Position numbers and translations under genes: made by a program. A stretch of 63,521 bases of DNA. Source: a virus. Position 1 is the first letter of the stretch, and each line of letters starts with the position of its first letter. Shown piece after piece: positions 4,238 through 17,368 of this stretch. The notes under the pieces are model-generated. The model was not told where the DNA came from. It searched no databases and saw only the letters and a list, made by a program, of their open reading frames with translations. Where the stretch lies: positions 1 through 63,521 of the IMG/VR virus record IMGVR_UViG_3300027867_000006; one strand, 5' to 3'.

Positions 4238-4693
4238 ATGGCGACAGCCCTGCCGGGTGTTACACCCCCACCCGTTTTCCCGAAGCGAACGATCGTCTGC
4301 CTCTGCGGCTCGACGAAATTCTACCAGGCTTTCGCTCAAGCGAACGCCGACGAGACCCTCGCCGGGAAGATCGTCTTGTCGGTAGGATTCTTCCTCCACT
4401 CGACGCATCACACTGGCATCGGTCCGAGGGTAATTTCCCCCCACGAGAAAGAAAACCTCGACAGTCTGCACATGTCGAAGATCGATCTTGCCGATGAGAT
4501 CCTCGTGCTGAATGTCGGGGACTACATCGGGATGTCCACCCGGCGTGAAACCTGGTACGCCTTCCACAAGGGCAAGAGCGTCCGGTTCCTCGAGAAGATC
4601 CACGGCGCACGGGAAATCAACTCGTGGTTCGCTAACTGGGGCGCCTGGTCCGTTGCCGCGTCTGCGGCGTCGATTCAGCCGAGCGGGTCATGA
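4238..4693 (+). CDS. Nucleoside 2-deoxyribosyltransferase-like protein
   Basis: A 151-residue protein of the nucleoside deoxyribosyltransferase-like fold. It begins with the typical VCLCGSTKFYQAF (residues 20-32) and continues with LDSLHMSKIDLADEILVLNVG and YIGMSTRRETWYA, motifs shared by phage and bacterial members annotated as deoxyribosyltransferase or DUF4406-like. It may move deoxyribose between bases or cleave a dNMP N-glycosidic bond. It heads the rightward block with AAGGAG before the ATG and overlaps thyX by four bases, so a part in nucleotide metabolism is likely. Substrate unknown. Confidence 0.75.
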   Translation: MATALPGVTPPPVFPKRTIVCLCGSTKFYQAFAQANADETLAGKIVLSVGFFLHSTHHTGIGPRVISPHEKENLDSLHMSKIDLADEILVLNVGDYIGMSTRRETWYAFHKGKSVRFLEKIHGAREINSWFANWGAWSVAASAASIQPSGS

Positions 4694-5445
4694 TCAATGT
4701 CCTCGATCACGGCTATGTGAAGTTCATCGAGTGCTGGGGCTCGGACGAGCGCGTCATCGAAGCCGCCCGCATGTCGACCGACAAGGGCTTCAACGGGTGG
4801 GGACCGATTCACGAGTCCAGCTGTCATTCGCTCCATGAGCCCACTTTCCCTTGTACCTGTACGCCGAAAGCAGGCGACGAGAAGCTCCTCGCGTTCCTGT
4901 ACAAGAACAAACACATGACGCCTTTCGAAATGGGGGGCATCGTCATCGAGGTGATGGCGCCGATCTTCGTCTTTCGCGAGTGGCACCGTCACCGCACGCA
5001 GTCATATAACGAGATGTCGGCGCGATACATCCCGCTGCCCAACGTGAACTACGTTCCATCGATCGATCGCATCCTCAACGGCATCGCCAGCGTCGGAACG
5101 AACAGACAGGCTGCTGCACTCAACGCGAAGGGAGACCCGATCGAGGAGCCCGACTTCGAGAACTGGTTAGGAGATTTGGAGTCGGCCTACAAGTATTCGC
5201 AAGTGGTGTACGAGCGGGGCCTGAAGCTTGGTGTTCCGAAGGAACTCGCACGTCTGCCCGTTCCTGTCGCTCGATACAGCCGCATGCGGGCCTCAGCGAA
5301 TCTGCGAAACTGGCTGCAATTCCTGACGCTGCGCCAAGCGCCGAACGCGCAGTGGGAAATTCGGCAATATGCTGAAGCCGTTGGAATTCTAGTCAGCGAG
5401 TCCTTCCCGCGAACTTACGCACTATTCAAAGGAGAACCGAAATGA
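4690..5445 (+). CDS. thyX: Flavin-dependent thymidylate synthase ThyX
   Basis: A 251-residue ThyX. The family signature RHRxxSxNExSxR is present as RHRTQSYNEMSAR at residues 100-112. HMTPFEM (about 75-81) and the C-terminal NLRNWLQFLTLRQAPNAQWE (about 210-229) match the substrate and flavin regions. It converts dUMP to dTMP using methylene-tetrahydrofolate, NADPH and FAD. It is coupled by ATGA overlaps to its neighbours. With ThyX present, the separate ThyA-fold protein at 8759-9571 is free to do something else. Confidence 0.96.
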   Translation: MINVLDHGYVKFIECWGSDERVIEAARMSTDKGFNGWGPIHESSCHSLHEPTFPCTCTPKAGDEKLLAFLYKNKHMTPFEMGGIVIEVMAPIFVFREWHRHRTQSYNEMSARYIPLPNVNYVPSIDRILNGIASVGTNRQAAALNAKGDPIEEPDFENWLGDLESAYKYSQVVYERGLKLGVPKELARLPVPVARYSRMRASANLRNWLQFLTLRQAPNAQWEIRQYAEAVGILVSESFPRTYALFKGEPK

Positions 5446-6173
5446 TCGCATTCCACGGTGATAGCAACCTCAAGGCCCGCTACGTTGACCGCCTAAAGGC
5501 GCACGAAGTGGCCGACGAAATCATCCACGGCACCTATTGGGAGAACGGTAAGGGCTGCGCCGTGGGCTGCACGATCCACAGCAGCAATCATGGTGCCTAC
5601 GAAACGGAACTCGGCATTCCGATGATCCTGGCGCGACTGGAAGATCGCATCTTCGAAGGCATGAGCAACGGCAACTCGAAAGAGTTTCCCATGCGCTTCC
5701 TGAACGCGATTCCGGTCGGTGCTGACCTCTCCAGCGTCTGGTATCAATTCGCGCACTGGCTGCTGGTGGACGAAAAGGATGGTGTTCTGCGCTTCGCCAA
5801 GACTGACCGGACGAAGAAGGCCATTCAGGACGTAGCAGACCTCTATGCTCGCGCCGGGCGCGGCGAGAAGGTAGCAACGAAAGAATGGCAAAGCGCCCGG
5901 CAGTACGCCGCCGCCGCCACCGCCGCCGCCGCCGCCTACGCCGACGCCGCCGCCGCCTACGCCGCCGCCGCCGCCCCCGCCGTCGACGCCGCCGCCGCCT
6001 ACGCCGCCGCCGACGCCGCCGCCGCCGCCCCCGCCGTCGACGCCGCCGCCGCCGCCGCCGCCGCCGCCTACGCCGACGCCGCCGCCGCCGCACGGCGAAA
6101 AGCCTACAAGCGGCAGGCCGACAAACTGATCGAGCTGCTAATGGCAGCGCCTATTCCTGAGGGGGTCACATGA
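5442..6173 (+). CDS. Conserved phage protein with alanine-rich C-terminal tract
   Basis: 243 residues. The first 145 match a widespread but uncharacterised phage family (IAFHGDSNLKARYVDR, GKGCAVGCTIHS, YETELGIPMILARLEDRIFEG). Residues about 153-220 are nearly pure Ala broken by YADA, PAVDA and YAAAD units, encoded by GCC triplets; this should form a long helix. A basic end follows (RRKAYKRQADKLIELL). ATGA overlaps join it to thyX and the kinase. Function unknown; the alanine tract looks like triplet-repeat expansion. Confidence 0.8.
   Translation: MIAFHGDSNLKARYVDRLKAHEVADEIIHGTYWENGKGCAVGCTIHSSNHGAYETELGIPMILARLEDRIFEGMSNGNSKEFPMRFLNAIPVGADLSSVWYQFAHWLLVDEKDGVLRFAKTDRTKKAIQDVADLYARAGRGEKVATKEWQSARQYAAAATAAAAAYADAAAAYAAAAAPAVDAAAAYAAADAAAAAPAVDAAAAAAAAAYADAAAAARRKAYKRQADKLIELLMAAPIPEGVT
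5907..6093 (+). repeat. GCC-triplet low-complexity tract
   Basis: About 187 bases of GCC repeats interrupted by TAC, GAC, ACC and GTC codons, including two near-identical units encoding APAVDAAAA. In frame it codes the alanine-rich segment of the gene at 5442-6173. The open frames of arginine or arginine-like repeats read from other phases here are artefacts. Confidence 0.9.
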
Positions 6174-6673
6174 TCATCGTCGTGGAAGGATGCGATAACG
6201 CCGGCAAGACCACCTTGGCTTTGGATCTTGCCAAGAGGCTTCGCGCCGTGTTCCTGAAGGTCGAGCGTCCTGCGAGGGGAGTCGACCTCATGGCGTTTGC
6301 CAATCTGCTCGAGGTGGCGAAGAGTTACTCAGGTATCGTCGTAACTGATCGTCACGTCGCTATCAGCGAGCCGATCTACGGCAATATCATTCGAGGTGGG
6401 CACTCACTCAAGACCGAAGACCTTGCGTTGGCTCGAGAACGAATCGACCTCGTGGTCTATTGCCGACCCCCTAACGCTCGGATCTTCTCGACTATGGCCG
6501 ATCGCGAGCAGATGGAAGGTGTCATCGAGCAAGGCGAATCGATTCTCTGCGCCTATGATGATCTGTTTTTCACACCCGGTCCTCGGCACACCCGGTACGA
6601 CTACACGACGATGACGGTGGACGATCTGCTTCAACGCATCGCTCCGCTATTCAATCCGGCCCAAAGGAGCTGA
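6170..6673 (+). CDS. Deoxynucleoside monophosphate kinase (thymidylate kinase-like)
   Basis: 167 residues with a P-loop EGCDNAGKTTLA (6-17), a DR motif VVTDRHVAISEPIYG (about 58-72) and VVYCRPP (about 94-100), as in thymidylate kinase-like proteins. It would phosphorylate dTMP or a related, possibly modified, dNMP. It follows ThyX and precedes a MazG-like protein, so it belongs to the phage nucleotide pathway. Exact substrate cannot be read from sequence. Confidence 0.85.
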   Translation: MIIVVEGCDNAGKTTLALDLAKRLRAVFLKVERPARGVDLMAFANLLEVAKSYSGIVVTDRHVAISEPIYGNIIRGGHSLKTEDLALARERIDLVVYCRPPNARIFSTMADREQMEGVIEQGESILCAYDDLFFTPGPRHTRYDYTTMTVDDLLQRIAPLFNPAQRS

Positions 6674-6674
6674 A

Positions 6675-7382
6675 ATGCACGAAAGAAACGACTTCCTCGA
6701 TGTGCGCGAGTTCCACGTCAAATTTGGCGTACCGATCGATCACCCGGGCGTGCCAGTCCACTGGATGGACGATTCGATGTTCAGGTTCCGGCAGAAATTT
6801 CTGACCGAGGAGCTCAGCGAGTACGCTGATGCAGTCAACCGCAGCGACCTCGTGAAGACCGTCGATTCTCTGATCGACTTTGTCTATGTCGCGATGGGAA
6901 CCGCGCTGTTCATGGGTGCGGGGGAAGTCTACGTCGAGTGGCCAAAGTTCGCTCCAGTACGCCAGCGCGTCTTGCGCAACCGCTGGAACATGCCCCACAC
7001 ATCGGCCCCGATTTTTCTGACGGGTCAACTGAACCTCGAGATGCACGACCGCATGGCTCGGTTGATCGGTCAGTTCTGTCTTAATCACGTGTCGAAGAGC
7101 AAAGGTGAATGGGCGCATGACGTCACCGTGGGAATCCTGAAGATGGCCGTGCTCGAGGCGTATTTGACCGCCGCGATGATGAACGTCCCGTGGGTCGAAT
7201 GCTGGCAGCACGTTCACGACGCGAACATGAAGAAGATTCGAGCTGCATCAGATGGATCGGACTCCACGAGAAAGTCTCCCTGGGACGTGGTTAAGCCCGT
7301 TGGCTGGCTGCCCCCCGATCCTTCGATCCGACTCGAACTCGAGATGCGCGGCGCAATCATTCACACTCAGGGTGGAGTCTGA
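6675..7382 (+). CDS. MazG-like all-alpha NTP pyrophosphohydrolase
   Basis: 235 residues. FLTEELSEYADAV (about 43-55) followed by DLVKTVDSLIDFVYVAMG (about 58-75) gives the ExxE...D acidic pattern of all-alpha NTP pyrophosphatases (MazG / phosphoribosyl-ATP pyrophosphohydrolase-like). A second Glu-containing helix and PWVECWQHVHDANMKKI follow. Such enzymes remove unwanted (d)NTPs, for example to bias pools toward a modified nucleotide. It sits between the dNMP kinase and an unknown protein, with TGATG coupling to the latter. Confidence 0.75.
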   Translation: MHERNDFLDVREFHVKFGVPIDHPGVPVHWMDDSMFRFRQKFLTEELSEYADAVNRSDLVKTVDSLIDFVYVAMGTALFMGAGEVYVEWPKFAPVRQRVLRNRWNMPHTSAPIFLTGQLNLEMHDRMARLIGQFCLNHVSKSKGEWAHDVTVGILKMAVLEAYLTAAMMNVPWVECWQHVHDANMKKIRAASDGSDSTRKSPWDVVKPVGWLPPDPSIRLELEMRGAIIHTQGGV

Positions 7383-8167
7383 TGCTCATAGGATTGATCA
7401 AGCACGCTGTTGCGCTGCCGACGTTCGTTCTGCACGGCGTGCGCAAGATCGTTCAGGGCGTGCGGTGGGACGAAAAAGAACTCCCGCCCGCGCTGGACAT
7501 CTTGCGCGATCTGGGCTATAAGCCCGTGAAAGTGACCAGGTTGCTGAATCTCTACTACAACAAGGAGGAGGTCGCTAAAGCCAAAGCGAAGCTGAAGCAG
7601 CGTGTCGGTGAAGAGCATTCCTCGGTGTCGATCCTGACGCGCAACATGGAGAAGACGCATCCCATCACGCAGGGCTGGTGCATCCAGAACGTGGTCATCT
7701 CGCAGCGCTGGCACCGAAAAGAGCTGACCACCACGGCAGACGTCTTCTACCGCAGCACGGAAGCGATTATGAAATTCGGGGCGGATATCACATTGCTCCA
7801 CAACATATTCGATGGTGTCGGGGTCAAGCCATCGGTCGTACGGTTCTACTTCGCCAACCTGTACGTTTCGGCCGTCTTCTTCCCGCTGCTGTTTCGACAC
7901 ACAGACGGAGTCGCCTTCTTTCAGCACATCCGCAAGCATGACCCAGCGTTCTGGTGGTTGGCGACGAAAGCTGTGAGCCGTTATCTCGATCCGGTGAATC
8001 GCTACACCTACCGCGCTCAGGTGAAGCAGCGAGAGCTGGCGCAAGGACTCGATCGAGTGCCACTCGATGAGTACTTCTTCAATCGCTGTGGGCCTGAGAT
8101 GGCCGAGTATCATCGAGCGCACGCACCCCGGAAATCTACCGTGAGGAAGAAACGTGCAGTCGAATAA
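7382..8167 (+). CDS. Unknown conserved-looking protein in nucleotide-metabolism cluster (261 aa)
   Basis: I do not recognise this family. After a hydrophobic start (MLIGLIKHAVALPTFVLHG) comes a Lys-rich helix (KAKAKLKQRVG), then aromatic-rich sequence: GWCIQNVVISQRWHRKEL, TLLHNIFDGVGVKPSVVRFYF and FWWLATKAVSRYLDP. Conserved-looking His, Trp and Arg residues hint at an enzyme. It is translationally coupled to the MazG-like gene and overlaps the methyltransferase gene by 14 bases, so it may belong to base synthesis or modification. That is inference from position. Confidence 0.75.
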   Translation: MLIGLIKHAVALPTFVLHGVRKIVQGVRWDEKELPPALDILRDLGYKPVKVTRLLNLYYNKEEVAKAKAKLKQRVGEEHSSVSILTRNMEKTHPITQGWCIQNVVISQRWHRKELTTTADVFYRSTEAIMKFGADITLLHNIFDGVGVKPSVVRFYFANLYVSAVFFPLLFRHTDGVAFFQHIRKHDPAFWWLATKAVSRYLDPVNRYTYRAQVKQRELAQGLDRVPLDEYFFNRCGPEMAEYHRAHAPRKSTVRKKRAVE

Positions 8168-8756
8168 TGTTTTCTCAAATTCAGCCGAGAATATAGCCGC
8201 AATTTTGAATCTCCACTTCCCTAGAGGAACGATACTGGATGTGAACTATGGACTCGGTAGGTTCTATCGGAACGTCAAACATCGAAAAATAACGGGGGTA
8301 GATATTCGACCTGGTGCAACTGTGAAATGTGATAATCGCCAATTGCCATTCGAAGACGATTCGTTCGATATTGACGTATGTGACCCTCCGTACAAGAGGG
8401 GGGATGGAGTTCGATACGAAAAGTCTTATGGGAAAGCACCGAAGACCGAGACCCAAGTGACCTGGAGTTATCATGAGACACTTACCGAATTGTTGAGGGT
8501 TTCGCGCCACGGCCTCATTGTTAAGCTTCAAGACGGGACTGACGGTCATCGGTTTTTTGACCGCCGATTCCACATCACGACCTGGTTGAAGGATAAAATC
8601 GGTCTTGAACCTCACGATGTCTCTTGCAATGTCAGATTTTCCCTCGCTTCAACACTGGTTCCTGGTCGAGTTCCTCATTTCTTCCAACAGGGTGTGAGCT
8701 ATTTCTTGATCTACCGTTGGTCTCAAAAAAACCCATACAAAAGAGCGAGATTCTAA
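8154..8756 (+). CDS. DNA methyltransferase, DPPY-type
   Basis: 200 residues with a SAM-binding motif TILDVNYGLGRF (26-37) and the amino-methyltransferase catalytic motif DPPY (77-80). It should methylate exocyclic amino groups (N6-adenine or N4-cytosine). The GTG start has GAGGA ten bases upstream. The gene is clearly AT-richer than its neighbours and no restriction partner is visible, so recent acquisition as an orphan methyltransferase, perhaps anti-restriction, is likely. Target sequence unknown. Confidence 0.85.
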   Translation: MQSNNVFSNSAENIAAILNLHFPRGTILDVNYGLGRFYRNVKHRKITGVDIRPGATVKCDNRQLPFEDDSFDIDVCDPPYKRGDGVRYEKSYGKAPKTETQVTWSYHETLTELLRVSRHGLIVKLQDGTDGHRFFDRRFHITTWLKDKIGLEPHDVSCNVRFSLASTLVPGRVPHFFQQGVSYFLIYRWSQKNPYKRARF

Positions 8757-8758
8757 AA

Positions 8759-9571
8759 ATGTCTACAGCTCATCCCTCATTCGACATTGCTATTTCGCGC
8801 ACGAGCGACGCGATGCGCGACTACTCTCGCGTGATCAAGACGGAGAAGTGGCAAGGCATCGACATCTCGAAACGTCCTGAGGCCGAGATGCGAGAGGTCA
8901 TCGGCTGGGACTTCCGCGTCCAAATGCCCAGCGAGGATCCGGCGTACTACGCCGAGCAGATCAAGCCGAATCTGCCGTGGGCCGACGATCACTTTGTCGA
9001 GCGCGTCTGCGGATATCCGATGAACCCTGGCGAGACGTGGAAGGACTGGCCGTTCGCGCACTCAGCCAAGGGGTTCCTCGACGCCAAGGGGAGGTTCGAG
9101 GTCAACTACATGGAGCGTTTCTGGGGCGGAGCGGACAAAGGATTCCAAGATACCCCCGATACGGGTGTGACGTCTGGGTTATTCGGCATCCGCGGGCGCC
9201 CGTACGGCGACCTCGACAGCATCATCAGACTTCTAACCGAGCAGCCGCTGACGCGGCAAGCCTACTTGCCGATCTACTGGCCGGAAGATACAGGTGCAGG
9301 GGGTCGCGTTCCATGCAGTCTCGGCTATCACTGGATCATGCGAAACGGGCACTTGCATGTGCACTACCCGATCAGGTCGTGCGACTTCTACCGGCACTTC
9401 CGCGACGACATGTACCTGTGCATCCGACTGACGCTGTGGCTTCTCGAGCGCCTGCGCGTTGCTAATTTCCGAGTATGGAGGCAGGTCAAGCCCGGGTTCT
9501 TCTCGATGTGGATCGGCAGCTTGCACTTGTTCGTCAACGACTATCGTCTGCTCTTCGGAGATCGGCCATGA
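8759..9571 (+). CDS. Thymidylate synthase-fold protein, candidate dCMP hydroxymethylase
   Basis: 270 residues starting MSTAHPSFDI. The ThyA fold is recognisable from a catalytic-Cys motif RVPCSLGY (C186), the phosphate motif RSCD (206-209) and GSLHLFVND (253-261), which parallels the ThyA motif GDTHLYSNH. The residue eight after RSCD, Asn177 in E. coli ThyA, is Asp217 here. T4 dCMP hydroxymethylase makes the same change to read cytosine. The GLPFN segment is replaced by HFRDD. Since thymidylate supply is covered by ThyX, hydroxymethylation of dCMP (or dUMP) is my preferred role; this is inference. Confidence 0.78.
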   Translation: MSTAHPSFDIAISRTSDAMRDYSRVIKTEKWQGIDISKRPEAEMREVIGWDFRVQMPSEDPAYYAEQIKPNLPWADDHFVERVCGYPMNPGETWKDWPFAHSAKGFLDAKGRFEVNYMERFWGGADKGFQDTPDTGVTSGLFGIRGRPYGDLDSIIRLLTEQPLTRQAYLPIYWPEDTGAGGRVPCSLGYHWIMRNGHLHVHYPIRSCDFYRHFRDDMYLCIRLTLWLLERLRVANFRVWRQVKPGFFSMWIGSLHLFVNDYRLLFGDRP

Positions 9572-11024: not shown

Positions 11025-11072
11025 ATGATACTTACACCAGAGCAGCGCAAGGACTTCGAGGCCAAGAGATGA
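11025..11072 (+). CDS. Mini-ORF (15 aa) coupled to the deaminase gene
   Basis: Reads MILTPEQRKDFEAKR with GAGAGG about seven bases upstream, and its stop overlaps the deaminase ATG (ATGA). A nine-codon ORF (10999-11028, MNNKREVSK) overlaps it in the same manner. Either these are true coupled leader peptides or they are remnants of a longer gene; the start resembles that of many small phage proteins. Support is only positional. Confidence 0.3.
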   Translation: MILTPEQRKDFEAKR

Positions 11073-11506
11073 TCGATCGAATCTCTCGCGAGCAGATGTT
11101 GCTGGAAATAGCCCATGCTGTGGCTCTTCGAGGAACCTGTCGAAGACTCTCAGTGGGTGCTGTGATCGCCCGAGAGTATCATCCATTGGAGTTCGGGTAC
11201 GTCGGTGCGCCCCCTGGAGAAGCTCATTGCGACGAGTTCAATTGTGACCTGACTCAACCCTGTACTCGAACTTGGCATGCTGAATTCAACGTCATTAGAC
11301 GATCCAAAGAGCGTTCAATCAATCTACTGGGGGCTTCGATGTTTTGCACCGATTCGCCATGCCTCCAGTGCGCCATGAACATTCGGGACTCGGGCATCAC
11401 ACGAGTTTATTACGATCGCCGGTATAGACGACCAGAAGGAATTTTATATTTGGAATCGAACAATGTGGTTGTTGTACAGCTGAAGCGTTATGTCACGCAA
11501 TCCTAA
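11069..11506 (+). CDS. Deoxycytidylate (dCMP) deaminase
   Basis: 145 residues of the zinc-dependent cytidine/dCMP deaminase family. The catalytic HAE is at 70-72 (TWHAEFN) and the zinc Cys pair at 98 and 101 (SPCLQC). Extra Cys residues (CDEFNCD, PCTR) may bind a second zinc, as in phage dCMP deaminases. It makes dUMP from dCMP, feeding ThyX, and would compete with any dCMP hydroxymethylase for the same pool. ATGA-coupled upstream; its end overlaps the polymerase start by 17 bases. Confidence 0.88.
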   Translation: MIDRISREQMLLEIAHAVALRGTCRRLSVGAVIAREYHPLEFGYVGAPPGEAHCDEFNCDLTQPCTRTWHAEFNVIRRSKERSINLLGASMFCTDSPCLQCAMNIRDSGITRVYYDRRYRRPEGILYLESNNVVVVQLKRYVTQS

Positions 11507-14030
11507 CTGCACCGACTGCATGTTGCACGAGTCGTCCAAGCACGTATGCATCTGGGGCACAGGCGACGGCCCGGGATTCCTCGTAGGTGAAGCGCCAGGC
11601 CGCGAAGAAGGGCGCACTGGCAAGCCGTTCATGGGACAAGCCGGGCAACTGATGCGCCCGATTCTCGAGGAACTTGGCATTCACGACCCGTATATCACCA
11701 ACGCGGCGAAGTGCCGCCCCCCATCAAATCGGAAACCCGAGCCGAGCGAAATTAAGATCTGCAAGAAGTATCTCCTCGAGGAAATTCAAGACCGAAAACC
11801 GAAAGCGATTCTGCTTCTCGGAGCGATCGCGATGCGGTCGATGCTGAATCGCACGGGCATCACCGAGATGAATGGGCAGGTAGTCGAAAGGGACGGCCAG
11901 CAGTATGTTTGCGCTTTTCACCCGGCATACGTTCTGCGCGATCCGTCTAAGGAGAGCGCCTTTCGCATGGCGGTCGCTCGGTACGCCTCGGTGTTGAATG
12001 GCAGCTTCTCGAACGAGATGCCAAAGTGGAGCCCGATCGATCACGAGCACTTTGATGAATTCATCAGCGATTGGATACTCGCTGACGCTATCTCCTTCGA
12101 CACCGAAGGCGCCGGCGAAGATGAAGGAGACGGTCTGAAGTGGTGGAAAGAAGGATATGAGGTGACATCCATCTCGTTCTCGCTTCGGATTTCATCGAAC
12201 AGTGACGAAATGGAAAAGAACTGGGCGCTTGCGATGCCCGGTCACGCGGGGGCGGTTCTGAACGAGGAGATGTGCAGACTCCTGCTTGAGGAACTGGTCA
12301 CTATGACCGCCGGGAAGCGCATGGTCGCGCACAATGGAAAATACGACAACCTCTGCCTGATGCGCCGGTTTGGTGTTCGATTCCCACTGGCGTCAGACAC
12401 CATGCTGGCCAGTCACCTGACAGATGAGAACTCCAGTCACGGTTTGAAGATCCTCGCTCGTCAACATTGCGGGGCTCCAGATTATGATCTTTCGATGAGA
12501 GAGAAAAAAAATACGCGAAATGTGCCGATCCACAAGTTATTAGGCTATAACGCCGGTGACTCGGCTTGGACGCGACGCCTCGATCCGATCTTCCGCAAGA
12601 AGATGGACGATCAAGAGCGGTGGCTGTACGAGAAAGTGATCATGCCCGCAGCTCGAGCGTTCGAGCAGATCGAAGAGAACGGCCTGTATGTTGACCTCGA
12701 CTACCTCGCGCAATCGGAAGTCGATGAGAAGCGCAAGATGGTCGACACCATCAAGAAGCTGAATCGCATCGCGAAGCGCGAGGTCAACTGGAACGCGCCC
12801 GCTCAGGTCGCCGAGGTGCTGTACAAAGACCTCGGTCTCGAGCCGACGATCTTCACGGACAAAGTCAACCCCGACACCGGCGAACGCGACACACCTTCAA
12901 CCGGCGAGGAAGCGCTAGTCGACATCAAGCACCCGATCGGCAAGCTGCTCGAGGCGTACCGCGGGCACAAGAAGTTCCTCTCGACGTACACGGGCGAGCG
13001 TCAGGAAGACGGAACCTACGCCGGCGGGTGGCGCGACTACATGGACGGCCCGCGACTGTACCTCAGCACGAAGCTGCACGGCACCGTGACGGGCCGATAC
13101 TCGAGCCGCCTGCACCAGACGCCACGCGATGGGACGATCCGCAATGCGATCATCGCCCCGCCTGGGTGGAAGTTCGGCCAGCTCGACCTGTCGCAAGCCG
13201 AGTTGAAGACGATCGCCGTGGTCTCACGCGACCCGGAACTGCTGTCGTGCTTTAAGAAGGGCGAGGACGTTCACTGGCGCACGCTGATGGAGGCCGTGCG
13301 TGCAGGTGGCGGCGAGTACATCGATCTGGTGATGAGCACAGCGAAGCAGATCACCAAGCGAAAGCTCGAGTTCCCTGATGCGATGGACCTCGTGCACGAC
13401 TACGGGCGGCTGGATCCTGATGTGGCGATCGCCCTCAACGGCGACTGGAAGGAAGCACGGAAGAAAGCCAAGGGCATCAACTTCGGATTCGCTTTCGGTC
13501 AGAGTGCGAACGGCTTCATCAACTACGCTAAGACCAAATACGGATTCGAACCGACGTTGCAGGAATCCACGACGTTCCGCGATGCGTACTTCAACCTGTA
13601 TCACGCGCTACCAGCCTGGCACGAGCGACAGATCAAGCTCGCCAAGGCGGACGGGTTCGTCCGAAACCTGTGCGGGCGCAAGCGTCGCCTGCCGGGGATC
13701 TGGTCGAGTGATCGATCGCTCGTCGCTGAATGCGAGCGGCAAGCGATCAACGCGCCAATCCAGGGATTCATAGGTGACTACAAGGCGATGATCCTCGCCG
13801 AGTTGATGGAGACGTTTCCGTGGGAACGCTTCCGCATCGTCGGTGAGGTACACGACTCGATTCTCTTCTGGTTCAAGGACGACTCGATTCTCGAGGAGAT
13901 CCGCCAGGTAGCAGATCACCCACGGCTCGCGAAAGAATGCGGGCTCAATTTTCCAATCAACTTCAACGTCGACATCGAAGTCGGCCGATGGGGCAAAGGA
14001 ACTAAAATCAAAAGGAAACAACATGTTTGA
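11490..14030 (+). CDS. Uracil-DNA glycosylase / family A DNA polymerase fusion
   Basis: 846 residues in two parts. Residues 1-170 are a family 4-type Fe-S uracil-DNA glycosylase: CTDC (7-10), motif A GEAPGREE (33-40), Fe-S Cys at 75 and 91 and the HPAYV motif (144-148). The rest is a family A DNA polymerase with 3'-5' exonuclease: FDTEG (203-207), AHNGKYDN (about 281-288) and YNAGDSAW for proofreading, then motif A LDLSQAE (about 566-572), motif B KGINFGFAFG (661-670, Phe where Pol I has Tyr766) and motif C GEVHDS (about 785-790). It should replicate phage DNA while excising uracil. The fusion is unusual. Confidence 0.93.
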   Translation: MSRNPNCTDCMLHESSKHVCIWGTGDGPGFLVGEAPGREEGRTGKPFMGQAGQLMRPILEELGIHDPYITNAAKCRPPSNRKPEPSEIKICKKYLLEEIQDRKPKAILLLGAIAMRSMLNRTGITEMNGQVVERDGQQYVCAFHPAYVLRDPSKESAFRMAVARYASVLNGSFSNEMPKWSPIDHEHFDEFISDWILADAISFDTEGAGEDEGDGLKWWKEGYEVTSISFSLRISSNSDEMEKNWALAMPGHAGAVLNEEMCRLLLEELVTMTAGKRMVAHNGKYDNLCLMRRFGVRFPLASDTMLASHLTDENSSHGLKILARQHCGAPDYDLSMREKKNTRNVPIHKLLGYNAGDSAWTRRLDPIFRKKMDDQERWLYEKVIMPAARAFEQIEENGLYVDLDYLAQSEVDEKRKMVDTIKKLNRIAKREVNWNAPAQVAEVLYKDLGLEPTIFTDKVNPDTGERDTPSTGEEALVDIKHPIGKLLEAYRGHKKFLSTYTGERQEDGTYAGGWRDYMDGPRLYLSTKLHGTVTGRYSSRLHQTPRDGTIRNAIIAPPGWKFGQLDLSQAELKTIAVVSRDPELLSCFKKGEDVHWRTLMEAVRAGGGEYIDLVMSTAKQITKRKLEFPDAMDLVHDYGRLDPDVAIALNGDWKEARKKAKGINFGFAFGQSANGFINYAKTKYGFEPTLQESTTFRDAYFNLYHALPAWHERQIKLAKADGFVRNLCGRKRRLPGIWSSDRSLVAECERQAINAPIQGFIGDYKAMILAELMETFPWERFRIVGEVHDSILFWFKDDSILEEIRQVADHPRLAKECGLNFPINFNVDIEVGRWGKGTKIKRKQHV

Positions 14031-16831: not shown

Positions 16832-17368
16832 GTGTCTAAGGTCAATTCCAACCGAGTTGGTACTCTCTACTCGATGATCTCACCGAGTGGAAAGACTTAC
16901 ATTGGGATCACGGTTCAAAGTCTTGCTCGTCGAATAAGTGGCCACCTCAGATGTGCCGTTCATCATTACAGTTCCAGACCACTTTCTAGAGCTATTCGAA
17001 AGTACGGCATCAAGAGCTTCGAGCTTAAAGCTCTAGCAATTGGTCAGTGGGACTATCTAGTTTTACTTGAGATCCGAGCCATCGATCGGTTTAACAGCCG
17101 AGCTCCGGAGGGCTATAACTCAACCGATGGAGGAGAAGGAATGTTGGGTTATAACCCCACAGCTGAAACTCGAGAGCGACTTTCCCGTTCAAATAGCGGA
17201 AAGACCCATTCGATTCGAACTCGTAAGAAAATCTCAATGGCGAATCGAGGGAGAACTCCCTCAATCGAGACGCGACAGCGACTATCAGTCGCTCACCAAG
17301 GACATCGACATTCGCTCGAGACACGTCGAAAGATCTCTATCTCAGCCAAAGCTCGATTCTCGGGGTAA
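16832..17368 (+). CDS. GIY-YIG homing endonuclease with NUMOD3 repeats
   Basis: 178 residues. The nuclease domain starts with TLYSMISPSGKTYIGIT (11-27), the GIY-YIG pattern. The C-terminal part carries three NUMOD3-type DNA-binding repeats (SGKTHSIRTRKKIS, RGRTPSIETRQRLS, GHRHSLETRRKIS). It has no ribosome site; GTG 16832 lies at the predicted transcript start. AT-richer than neighbours and flanked by its own promoter, it looks like a free-standing mobile gene that cuts a related phage lacking it. Confidence 0.88.
   Translation: MSKVNSNRVGTLYSMISPSGKTYIGITVQSLARRISGHLRCAVHHYSSRPLSRAIRKYGIKSFELKALAIGQWDYLVLLEIRAIDRFNSRAPEGYNSTDGGEGMLGYNPTAETRERLSRSNSGKTHSIRTRKKISMANRGRTPSIETRQRLSVAHQGHRHSLETRRKISISAKARFSG

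Follow-up and report, generated by a model that had tools for sequence, protein, structure and literature searches.

What reaction is catalysed by the thymidylate synthase (TS)-like protein encoded at positions 8759 to 9571 (+) of a virus that also carries a gene for ThyX, the FAD-dependent thymidylate synthase (4690 to 5445, +; PF02511, E 9.4e-36)? We addressed this question in a window of 63,521 nucleotides, the whole stretch of DNA analysed, which covers positions 1 to 63,521 of the IMG/VR virus record IMGVR_UViG_3300027867_000006. The reading that we favour, with a probability of roughly 0.6, is that the product modifies dCMP at C5, most likely as a folate-dependent hydroxymethylase of the T4 gp42 kind, acting within a T4-like pathway and accompanied by a partner protein (7382 to 8167, +) that would be a second C5 enzyme or a subunit. 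The open frame of the TS-like gene runs from an ATG at 8759 to a stop at 9571 and specifies 270 amino acids. A longer version opening at a TTG codon (8624) is not supported, as the homologues start at the position of ATG-8759. When 25 kb of the window were compared with phage sequences by Megablast, no match appeared.

The similarity to the Pfam TS domain (PF00303) was weak, 19.5 bits for a cut-off of 24.3 (E 5.9e-4), and the Pfam scan of the genome itself missed the domain. The assignment thus rests on the PHROGs family phrog_160 (E 6.6e-25), on a profile search of the PDB and on an AF2 model searched with Foldseek. The profile was built from 69 members of the TS-like family, leaving out the gene 68 product of phage Huwbert and a paralogue from locus L088, and with a limit of E <= 0.01 it recovered 125 PDB sequences. 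AfhB ranked first (9iqu; E 3.7e-13, 52.6 bits); the N229D mutant of Lactobacillus casei TS (1njc, E 5.7e-11), the CMP hydroxymethylase MilA (E 1.8e-10, 43.8 bits) and the T4 dCMP hydroxymethylase gp42 (E 1e-7, 34.7 bits) were also found. The model (pLDDT 90.5, pTM 0.90) had the T4 dCMP hydroxymethylase as top match (E 2.5e-11); this enzyme and MilA filled ranks 1 to 9, above AfhB, and all 50 Foldseek matches listed were TS, dCMP/CMP hydroxymethylases or AfhB. By its modelled fold, its catalytic Cys and its Arg-Ser-x-Asp motif, the protein belongs to the TS superfamily.

We then looked at the active-site residues. The protein contains Arg166, the nucleophile Cys186 (codon 9314 to 9316, +), the motif R206-S207-C208-D209, Asp217 (codon 9407 to 9409, +) eight residues after Asp209, and His256. 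Conservation was counted over 112 aligned family sequences, among them the genuine ThyA encoded by Huwbert gene 68 and the Cys-less L088 paralogue: R166, R206 and H256 are found in 112/112, C186 and D209 in 111/112 and S207 in 110/112. The profile behind the gap, neighbourhood and RB69 comparisons given below likewise includes these two sequences. Asp217 is Asp in 110 of the 112, i.e. in every true member, and the two Asn cases are the Huwbert ThyA and the L088 paralogue, each the second TS gene of its locus; as judged from this alignment, such conservation is far beyond chance. In the profile alignments Asp217 coincides with the Asp introduced into 1njc and with that of AfhB and MilA, and in the multiple alignment it shares a column with Asp179 of T4 gp42 and with the Asn177 (Escherichia coli ThyA)/Asn229 site. 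An earlier note on this DNA had proposed both a TS-type protein with Cys186, RSCD and Asp217 and the equivalence of Asp217 with Asn177, and both proposals were borne out.

An Asp at the 177 site selects cytosine, and changing Asn to Asp there switches the substrate from dUMP to dCMP (PMC6400193, PMC5175136); dUMP-type enzymes retain Asn (PMC5175136). The MetaGPA study (PMC8670742) likewise describes the switch from dUMP to dCMP, with 5-methyl-dCMP as the product of the N177D ThyA itself, and Asp at 177 is there among the two residues that best mark contigs with modified cytosine. Judged by its residues, the TS-like protein is not a ThyA proper, since it has neither Asn at 177 nor the C-terminal closing tail (it ends about 10 residues past the His256 motif, and T4 gp42 lacks the tail too); nor is it a dUMP hydroxymethylase, which would have Asn in place of Asp217, and it does possess the Asp characteristic of dCMP hydroxymethylases of the T4 gp42 type. 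The 36 residues from Glu81 to Tyr117 equal the Glu58-Tyr94 spacing of ThyA and the Glu60-Tyr96 spacing of gp42 as counted on the sequences, the automatic alignment putting Glu81 not exactly in that column. ThyA Trp80 has no obvious equivalent, and the second Arg of the phosphate clamp (ThyA Arg127) is replaced by Gln167, within a TRQA motif that is common to the hydroxymethylases of Kuttervirus and Mesyanzhinovviridae; AfhB has SRR. Two variants met in the survey lie outside this pattern. The L088 paralogue (5310-6008), which has Thr for the catalytic Cys and Asn at 177 and lies beside a normal family member, is likely a pseudoenzyme, and the thyA gene of Achromobacter phage JWX (L170, 2171-3031), which combines Asp at 177 with a ThyA-like C-terminal tail, is a candidate dCMP methylase.

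Several genes around the TS-like gene would fit a nucleotide pathway. Upstream lie a P-loop dNMP/thymidylate-kinase-like protein, the proposed modified-dCMP kinase (6170 to 6673, +; phrog_761 1.8e-24, PF02223 0.003), and a MazG/PRA-PH-like NTP pyrophosphatase, the putative dCTPase (6675 to 7382, +; PF01503 E 6e-10, phrog_671 6e-25). Downstream are a dCMP deaminase (11069 to 11506, +; PF00383 1.9e-15, phrog_174 9e-38) and, syntenic with the cassette, a DNA polymerase A to which a uracil-DNA-glycosylase domain is fused at the N-terminus (11490 to 14030, +; PF00476 2e-50, PF03167 7e-28). Within the limits set by locus length, the 87 loci with both the partner and the TS-like gene contained the kinase in 76, MazG in 61, the deaminase in 83 and PolA in 84 cases, and the 19 loci with the TS-like gene only contained them in 1, 1, 8 and 7 cases, respectively. 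This recurrence around relatives supports a modified-dCTP pathway. Among the neighbours named in the earlier note, the MazG-like protein and the deaminase were confirmed by Pfam and the kinase was recovered more weakly; the supposed deoxyribosyltransferase-like protein (4238-4693) had no family match at all in Pfam or PHROGs. The same note had argued that ThyX leaves the TS-like enzyme spare. The ThyX gene itself is clear, but of the 59 carrier records only 19 have a detectable ThyX, with a classical ThyA turning up in about 3. The argument from ThyX is thus weak, and ThyX is not what leaves the enzyme available for a different task; most carriers, to judge from their gene content, probably use host dTMP.

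Between the two genes of interest lies a DPPY-type DNA methyltransferase-like gene (8154 to 8756, +; phrog_24333 9e-14). Because its GC content is low (0.459, against 0.56-0.59 in the flanking genes) and it occurs in only 1 of the 87 paired loci, we read it as probably a recent insertion outside the conserved cassette. Among those ORFs of the window that were scanned, a part of the total, no glycosyltransferase, carbamoyltransferase or thymidine-hypermodification gene was recognised. Two further genes of the window were recorded in passing: one at 5442-6173 (GC 0.665; weak phrog_3416 match) encodes a protein whose long C-terminal half is of low complexity and rich in Ala, Tyr and Asp, and one at 16832-17368 encodes a NUMOD3-motif protein, probably a homing endonuclease, that adjoins recombination genes.

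The partner gene at 7382 to 8167 had been listed before as an unknown protein of the same run. We now identify its product, a member of phrog_34294 (no function label), as a second and highly divergent TS-fold protein on the strength of an AF2 model, Foldseek and profile-profile alignment. The model is of good internal quality (pLDDT 90.9, pTM 0.85), and all 46 of its PDB matches at E<=1e-3 fall in the TS superfamily, the best being the T4 dCMP hydroxymethylase (2e-5) with a moderate TM of about 0.4. Searched against viral models, it first found its homologue in PMBT14, and the named matches included T4-type gp42 and thymidylate synthases. A partner profile retrieved nothing from the PDB sequences, and the TS-fold claim thus needs the model; a Pfam scan of 66 partners returned only stray single matches. 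When the two families were first compared by profile, with 19-20 sequences on each side, the probability was no higher than 0.4%, and a deeper comparison (hhalign) paired C186 with C100, R206 with R124, D209 with E127 and D217 with D135 at P=0.0035, which is weak in sequence.

The same residues stand out by conservation. Tyr58, Cys100 (codon 7679 to 7681, +), Arg124 and Asp135 (codon 7784 to 7786, +) were found in 89/89 partner sequences and Glu127 in 85/89; in an alignment of 66 partners these five are the only invariant columns, and Arg124, Glu127 and Asp135 follow each other at the spacing seen in TS (Arg, +3, then +8). When the AF2 models were compared without superposition, the order of secondary structures was that of the TS-like protein, save for a missing stretch and extra C-terminal helices. 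The missing stretch is the one after the helix that bears Glu58 in ThyA: in the partner the next helix follows directly, where ThyA has about 40 residues, including Trp80 and Tyr94. The partner, as modelled, apparently has no folate-binding segment (Glu58, Trp80, Tyr94) and is therefore inferred not to use folate. The phosphate Arg pair is also absent from its strand 79-85. By modelled fold and by the order of Cys, Arg and 177-site residue, the partner is a member of the TS superfamily. This relation has already been glimpsed by automatic annotation, in two deposited genomes where the partner is named 'pyrimidine hmase synthase'; phrog_34294 is not labelled as TS, and our literature search found no description of the relation. 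In six loci an additional, shorter partner-like gene of about 176-212 amino acids, which shares the core FCL...FYRSLELIGGFxYDL, lies downstream of the TS-like gene (L029 8237-8764, L046 7398-7967, L064 2625-3170, L072 6984-7520, L098 6870-7487 and L104 6846-7484), and some phages carry three predicted TS-fold genes in the cassette.

Are the two genes linked? With the partner as query, 58 of 59 fetched loci (4 kb flanks) contained a TS-like gene, and the exception (L123) is at a contig end, the other end of the same record (L086) having one. Every partner-carrying record found therefore also has a TS-like gene, usually directly downstream of the partner, and in most loci the two overlap by 4 bases (a gap of -3). 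With the TS-like protein as query, the partner was present in 41 of 55 distinct loci having at least 2.5 kb upstream, and both genes were found in 13/13 named phages examined. Among 23 records seemingly devoid of partner, 22 had no detectable one over their whole length (many of 30-219 kb, three of <10 kb) and one, that of L086, has it; the TS-like genes standing alone keep their catalytic residues. Dependence thus runs one way only, from the partner to the TS-like gene. In a quick tree the TS-like family forms a single group, separate from ThyA, gp42 and AfhB (support 92, with very long reference branches); its deepest members have the partner, and labelling presence or absence needs only about 4 changes, from which we infer several losses of the partner. 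A search for fused partner-TS proteins found none.

The TS-like family comprises 532 candidate loci in viral contigs and is found in 229 phage records, some of them distant. Phages of Mycobacterium, Gordonia, Streptomyces, Serratia, Pseudomonas and Brevundimonas carry the partner beside the enzyme. A scan with the TS-like alignment also yielded 5 MAG or genome contigs, 4 of them with a member of the TS-like family and 3 with the partner. Two family members are on contigs binned as Lokiarchaeota (L175) and Pacearchaeota (L176, with partner), probably viral contigs. In a clade that has lost the partner, a divergent C5-cytosine-methyltransferase-like gene stands upstream of the TS-like gene (L001 6441-7697, L050 4851-5972), and L025 and L043 have a DPPY-type methyltransferase at that spot instead; both identifications come from motif reading only. 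Our literature search turned up neither DNA-modification papers nor nucleoside measurements on this phage or on other carriers.

Taken together, these results suggest the following pathway. The MazG-like enzyme would convert dCTP to dCMP, the role of T4 gp56, and so supply the TS-like enzyme. There, Cys186 would add to C6 of cytosine, Asp217 would bind and protonate N3, and the phosphate would be held by Arg206 together with Arg166 of the other subunit; a one-carbon unit transferred onto C5 would be quenched by water to give the hydroxymethyl group. Hydroxymethylation of dCMP by this enzyme is likely, by analogy with T4 gp42. The P-loop kinase may take hm-dCMP to the diphosphate (the role of T4 gp1), and PolA would build hm-dCTP into DNA, giving 5-hydroxymethylcytosine. 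The partner, with the same Cys, Arg and Asp and apparently no folate segment, would most likely carry out a further reaction at C5 of that product or join the first enzyme in a mixed complex. A more specific and quite tentative proposal, which we consider possible rather than probable, is that it is a folate-free Cys/Asp catalyst acting on its neighbour's 5-hydroxymethyl-dCMP, or on hmC in DNA: the C6-Cys adduct and the exocyclic methylene would be regenerated and another nucleophile attached, the tandem TS-fold pair thus leading to an undescribed cytosine hypermodification.

Other products have to be weighed against hydroxymethyl-dCMP. The main rival, which we regard as unlikely, is direct hydroxylation by a 5-hydroxy-dCMP synthase like RB69 ORF048c/AfhB, giving 5-hydroxycytosine that is perhaps decorated later. 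AfhB is the best PDB profile match, but the distance between its 52.6 bits and the 43.8 of MilA or the 34.7 of gp42 is within the range that the N229D TS and MilA also give, and Foldseek reverses the order by putting T4 gp42 and MilA above AfhB. A dNMP/thymidylate kinase lies near the gene in RB69 and in Rhizobium phage N34, which also has an NTP pyrophosphatase, and the 5-hodCMP synthase, which has this fold and this Asp too, is a recognised TS-superfamily member (PMC13390438); the tree, however, groups AfhB with its Rhizobium homologue, apart from the TS-like family (on long branches), and the TRQA of the TS-like protein is the motif of the Kuttervirus and Mesyanzhinovviridae hydroxymethylases, not the SRR of AfhB. 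Sequence leaves hydroxylase and hydroxymethylase undivided, the profile pointing to AfhB and the tree, TRQA and Foldseek ranks to the hydroxymethylases.

Two further products seem much less probable. A dCMP methylase would make 5-methyl-dCMP and have C replaced by 5mC, as phage XP12 reportedly does. It would share the fold and the Asp, and N177D ThyA yields 5-methyl-dCMP (PMC8670742), but the C-terminal segment that serves the reductive step of ThyA is missing, as in T4 gp42, and so is an obvious Trp80; we thus find methylation improbable. The least probable reading is a dUMP hydroxymethylase whose product would go into hypermodified thymine, in the manner of ViI- or SPO1-type phages. The nearby deaminase would supply dUMP and TRQA is common to the Kuttervirus dUMP hydroxymethylase, but dUMP enzymes have Asn at 177 (PMC5175136) whereas all true TS-like members have Asp217, and the scanned proteins included no recognised thymidine-hypermodification gene. 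The earlier note had left the choice between modified cytosine and uracil; with Asp217 at the Asn177/Asn229 site, a fold matching first to cytosine-type enzymes and the recurring kinase, MazG, deaminase and PolA genes, the cytosine part stands and uracil is disfavoured. As to the pair itself, the two proteins might form an obligate heterodimer, each TS-fold subunit supplying what the phosphate site of the other lacks, like the halves of the TS homodimer. The genes are adjacent and usually translationally coupled, and the Arg pair absent from the partner is matched by an Arg166 kept in the TS-like protein; yet in 22 of the 23 records seemingly without partner the TS-like gene indeed stands alone with its catalytic residues kept, meaning that it does not need the partner. 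The one-way dependence argues against an obligate heterodimer, which we hold to be doubtful, and favours a partner that acts at a later step or as an auxiliary.

On these models, the TS-like protein is a further member of the known dCMP-type enzymes; what is new is that two TS-fold genes stand in tandem and that one of the two proteins probably works without folate. Through the former, an established marker of phages with modified cytosine now covers a large family, this member of which is below the Pfam cut-off. The partner weighs more, a conserved 'hypothetical protein' for which a predicted fold, putative catalytic residues and a role open to testing can now be given, and cultured carriers exist (Muddy, PMBT14, Serbin and Zuko).

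Compared with known systems, the closest parallel is T4. The T4 pathway set consists of dCTPase, dCMP hydroxymethylase, dNMP kinase and dCMP deaminase, and the cassette resembles it with MazG, the TS-like enzyme, the kinase and the deaminase in what would be the corresponding roles. T4 gp42 (PDB 1b49, 6a9a) shares the TS fold, catalytic Cys, RSxD, Asp at 177, the Glu-Tyr spacing of 36 and the missing C-terminal tail, but identity is only about 16% over the structural match, Gln replaces the second phosphate Arg in the TS-like protein, and the TS-like gene travels with a second TS-fold gene and PolA instead of a glucosyltransferase. MilA (PDB 5b6d) has the TS fold, Asp at 177 and a cytosine nucleotide as substrate; its ribonucleotide preference is due to Lys133 and Ala176, whereas the alignment suggests the deoxy type here, with Arg166 and Ser207. 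The RB69 ORF048c/AfhB-type enzyme, which makes 5-hydroxy-dCMP (PMC13390438), is represented by HY126 AfhB (PDB 9iqu, 9iqc); these entries name FAD, call the protein a dCMP hydroxylase and were deposited as a flavin-dependent monooxygenase. It shares the TS fold, Cys, Asp at 177 and a kinase nearby, and differs by SRR in place of TRQ, by its separate tree branch and by having no adjacent partner homologue: the partner profile gave no match with the RB69 genes around AfhB, ORF047c included. The Asp177 TS homologues of MetaGPA are also alike in that residue and in the co-occurrence of TS, PRA-PH (MazG-like) and dCMP deaminase domains in modified contigs; they differ in that no carbamoyltransferase is recognised here and our Pfam TS match is below cut-off, and the available part of that study does not mention the partner protein (PMC8670742). 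Finally, both proteins already belong to automatic families, phrog_160 ('thymidylate synthase') and phrog_34294 ('unknown function'), neither of which is functionally assigned.
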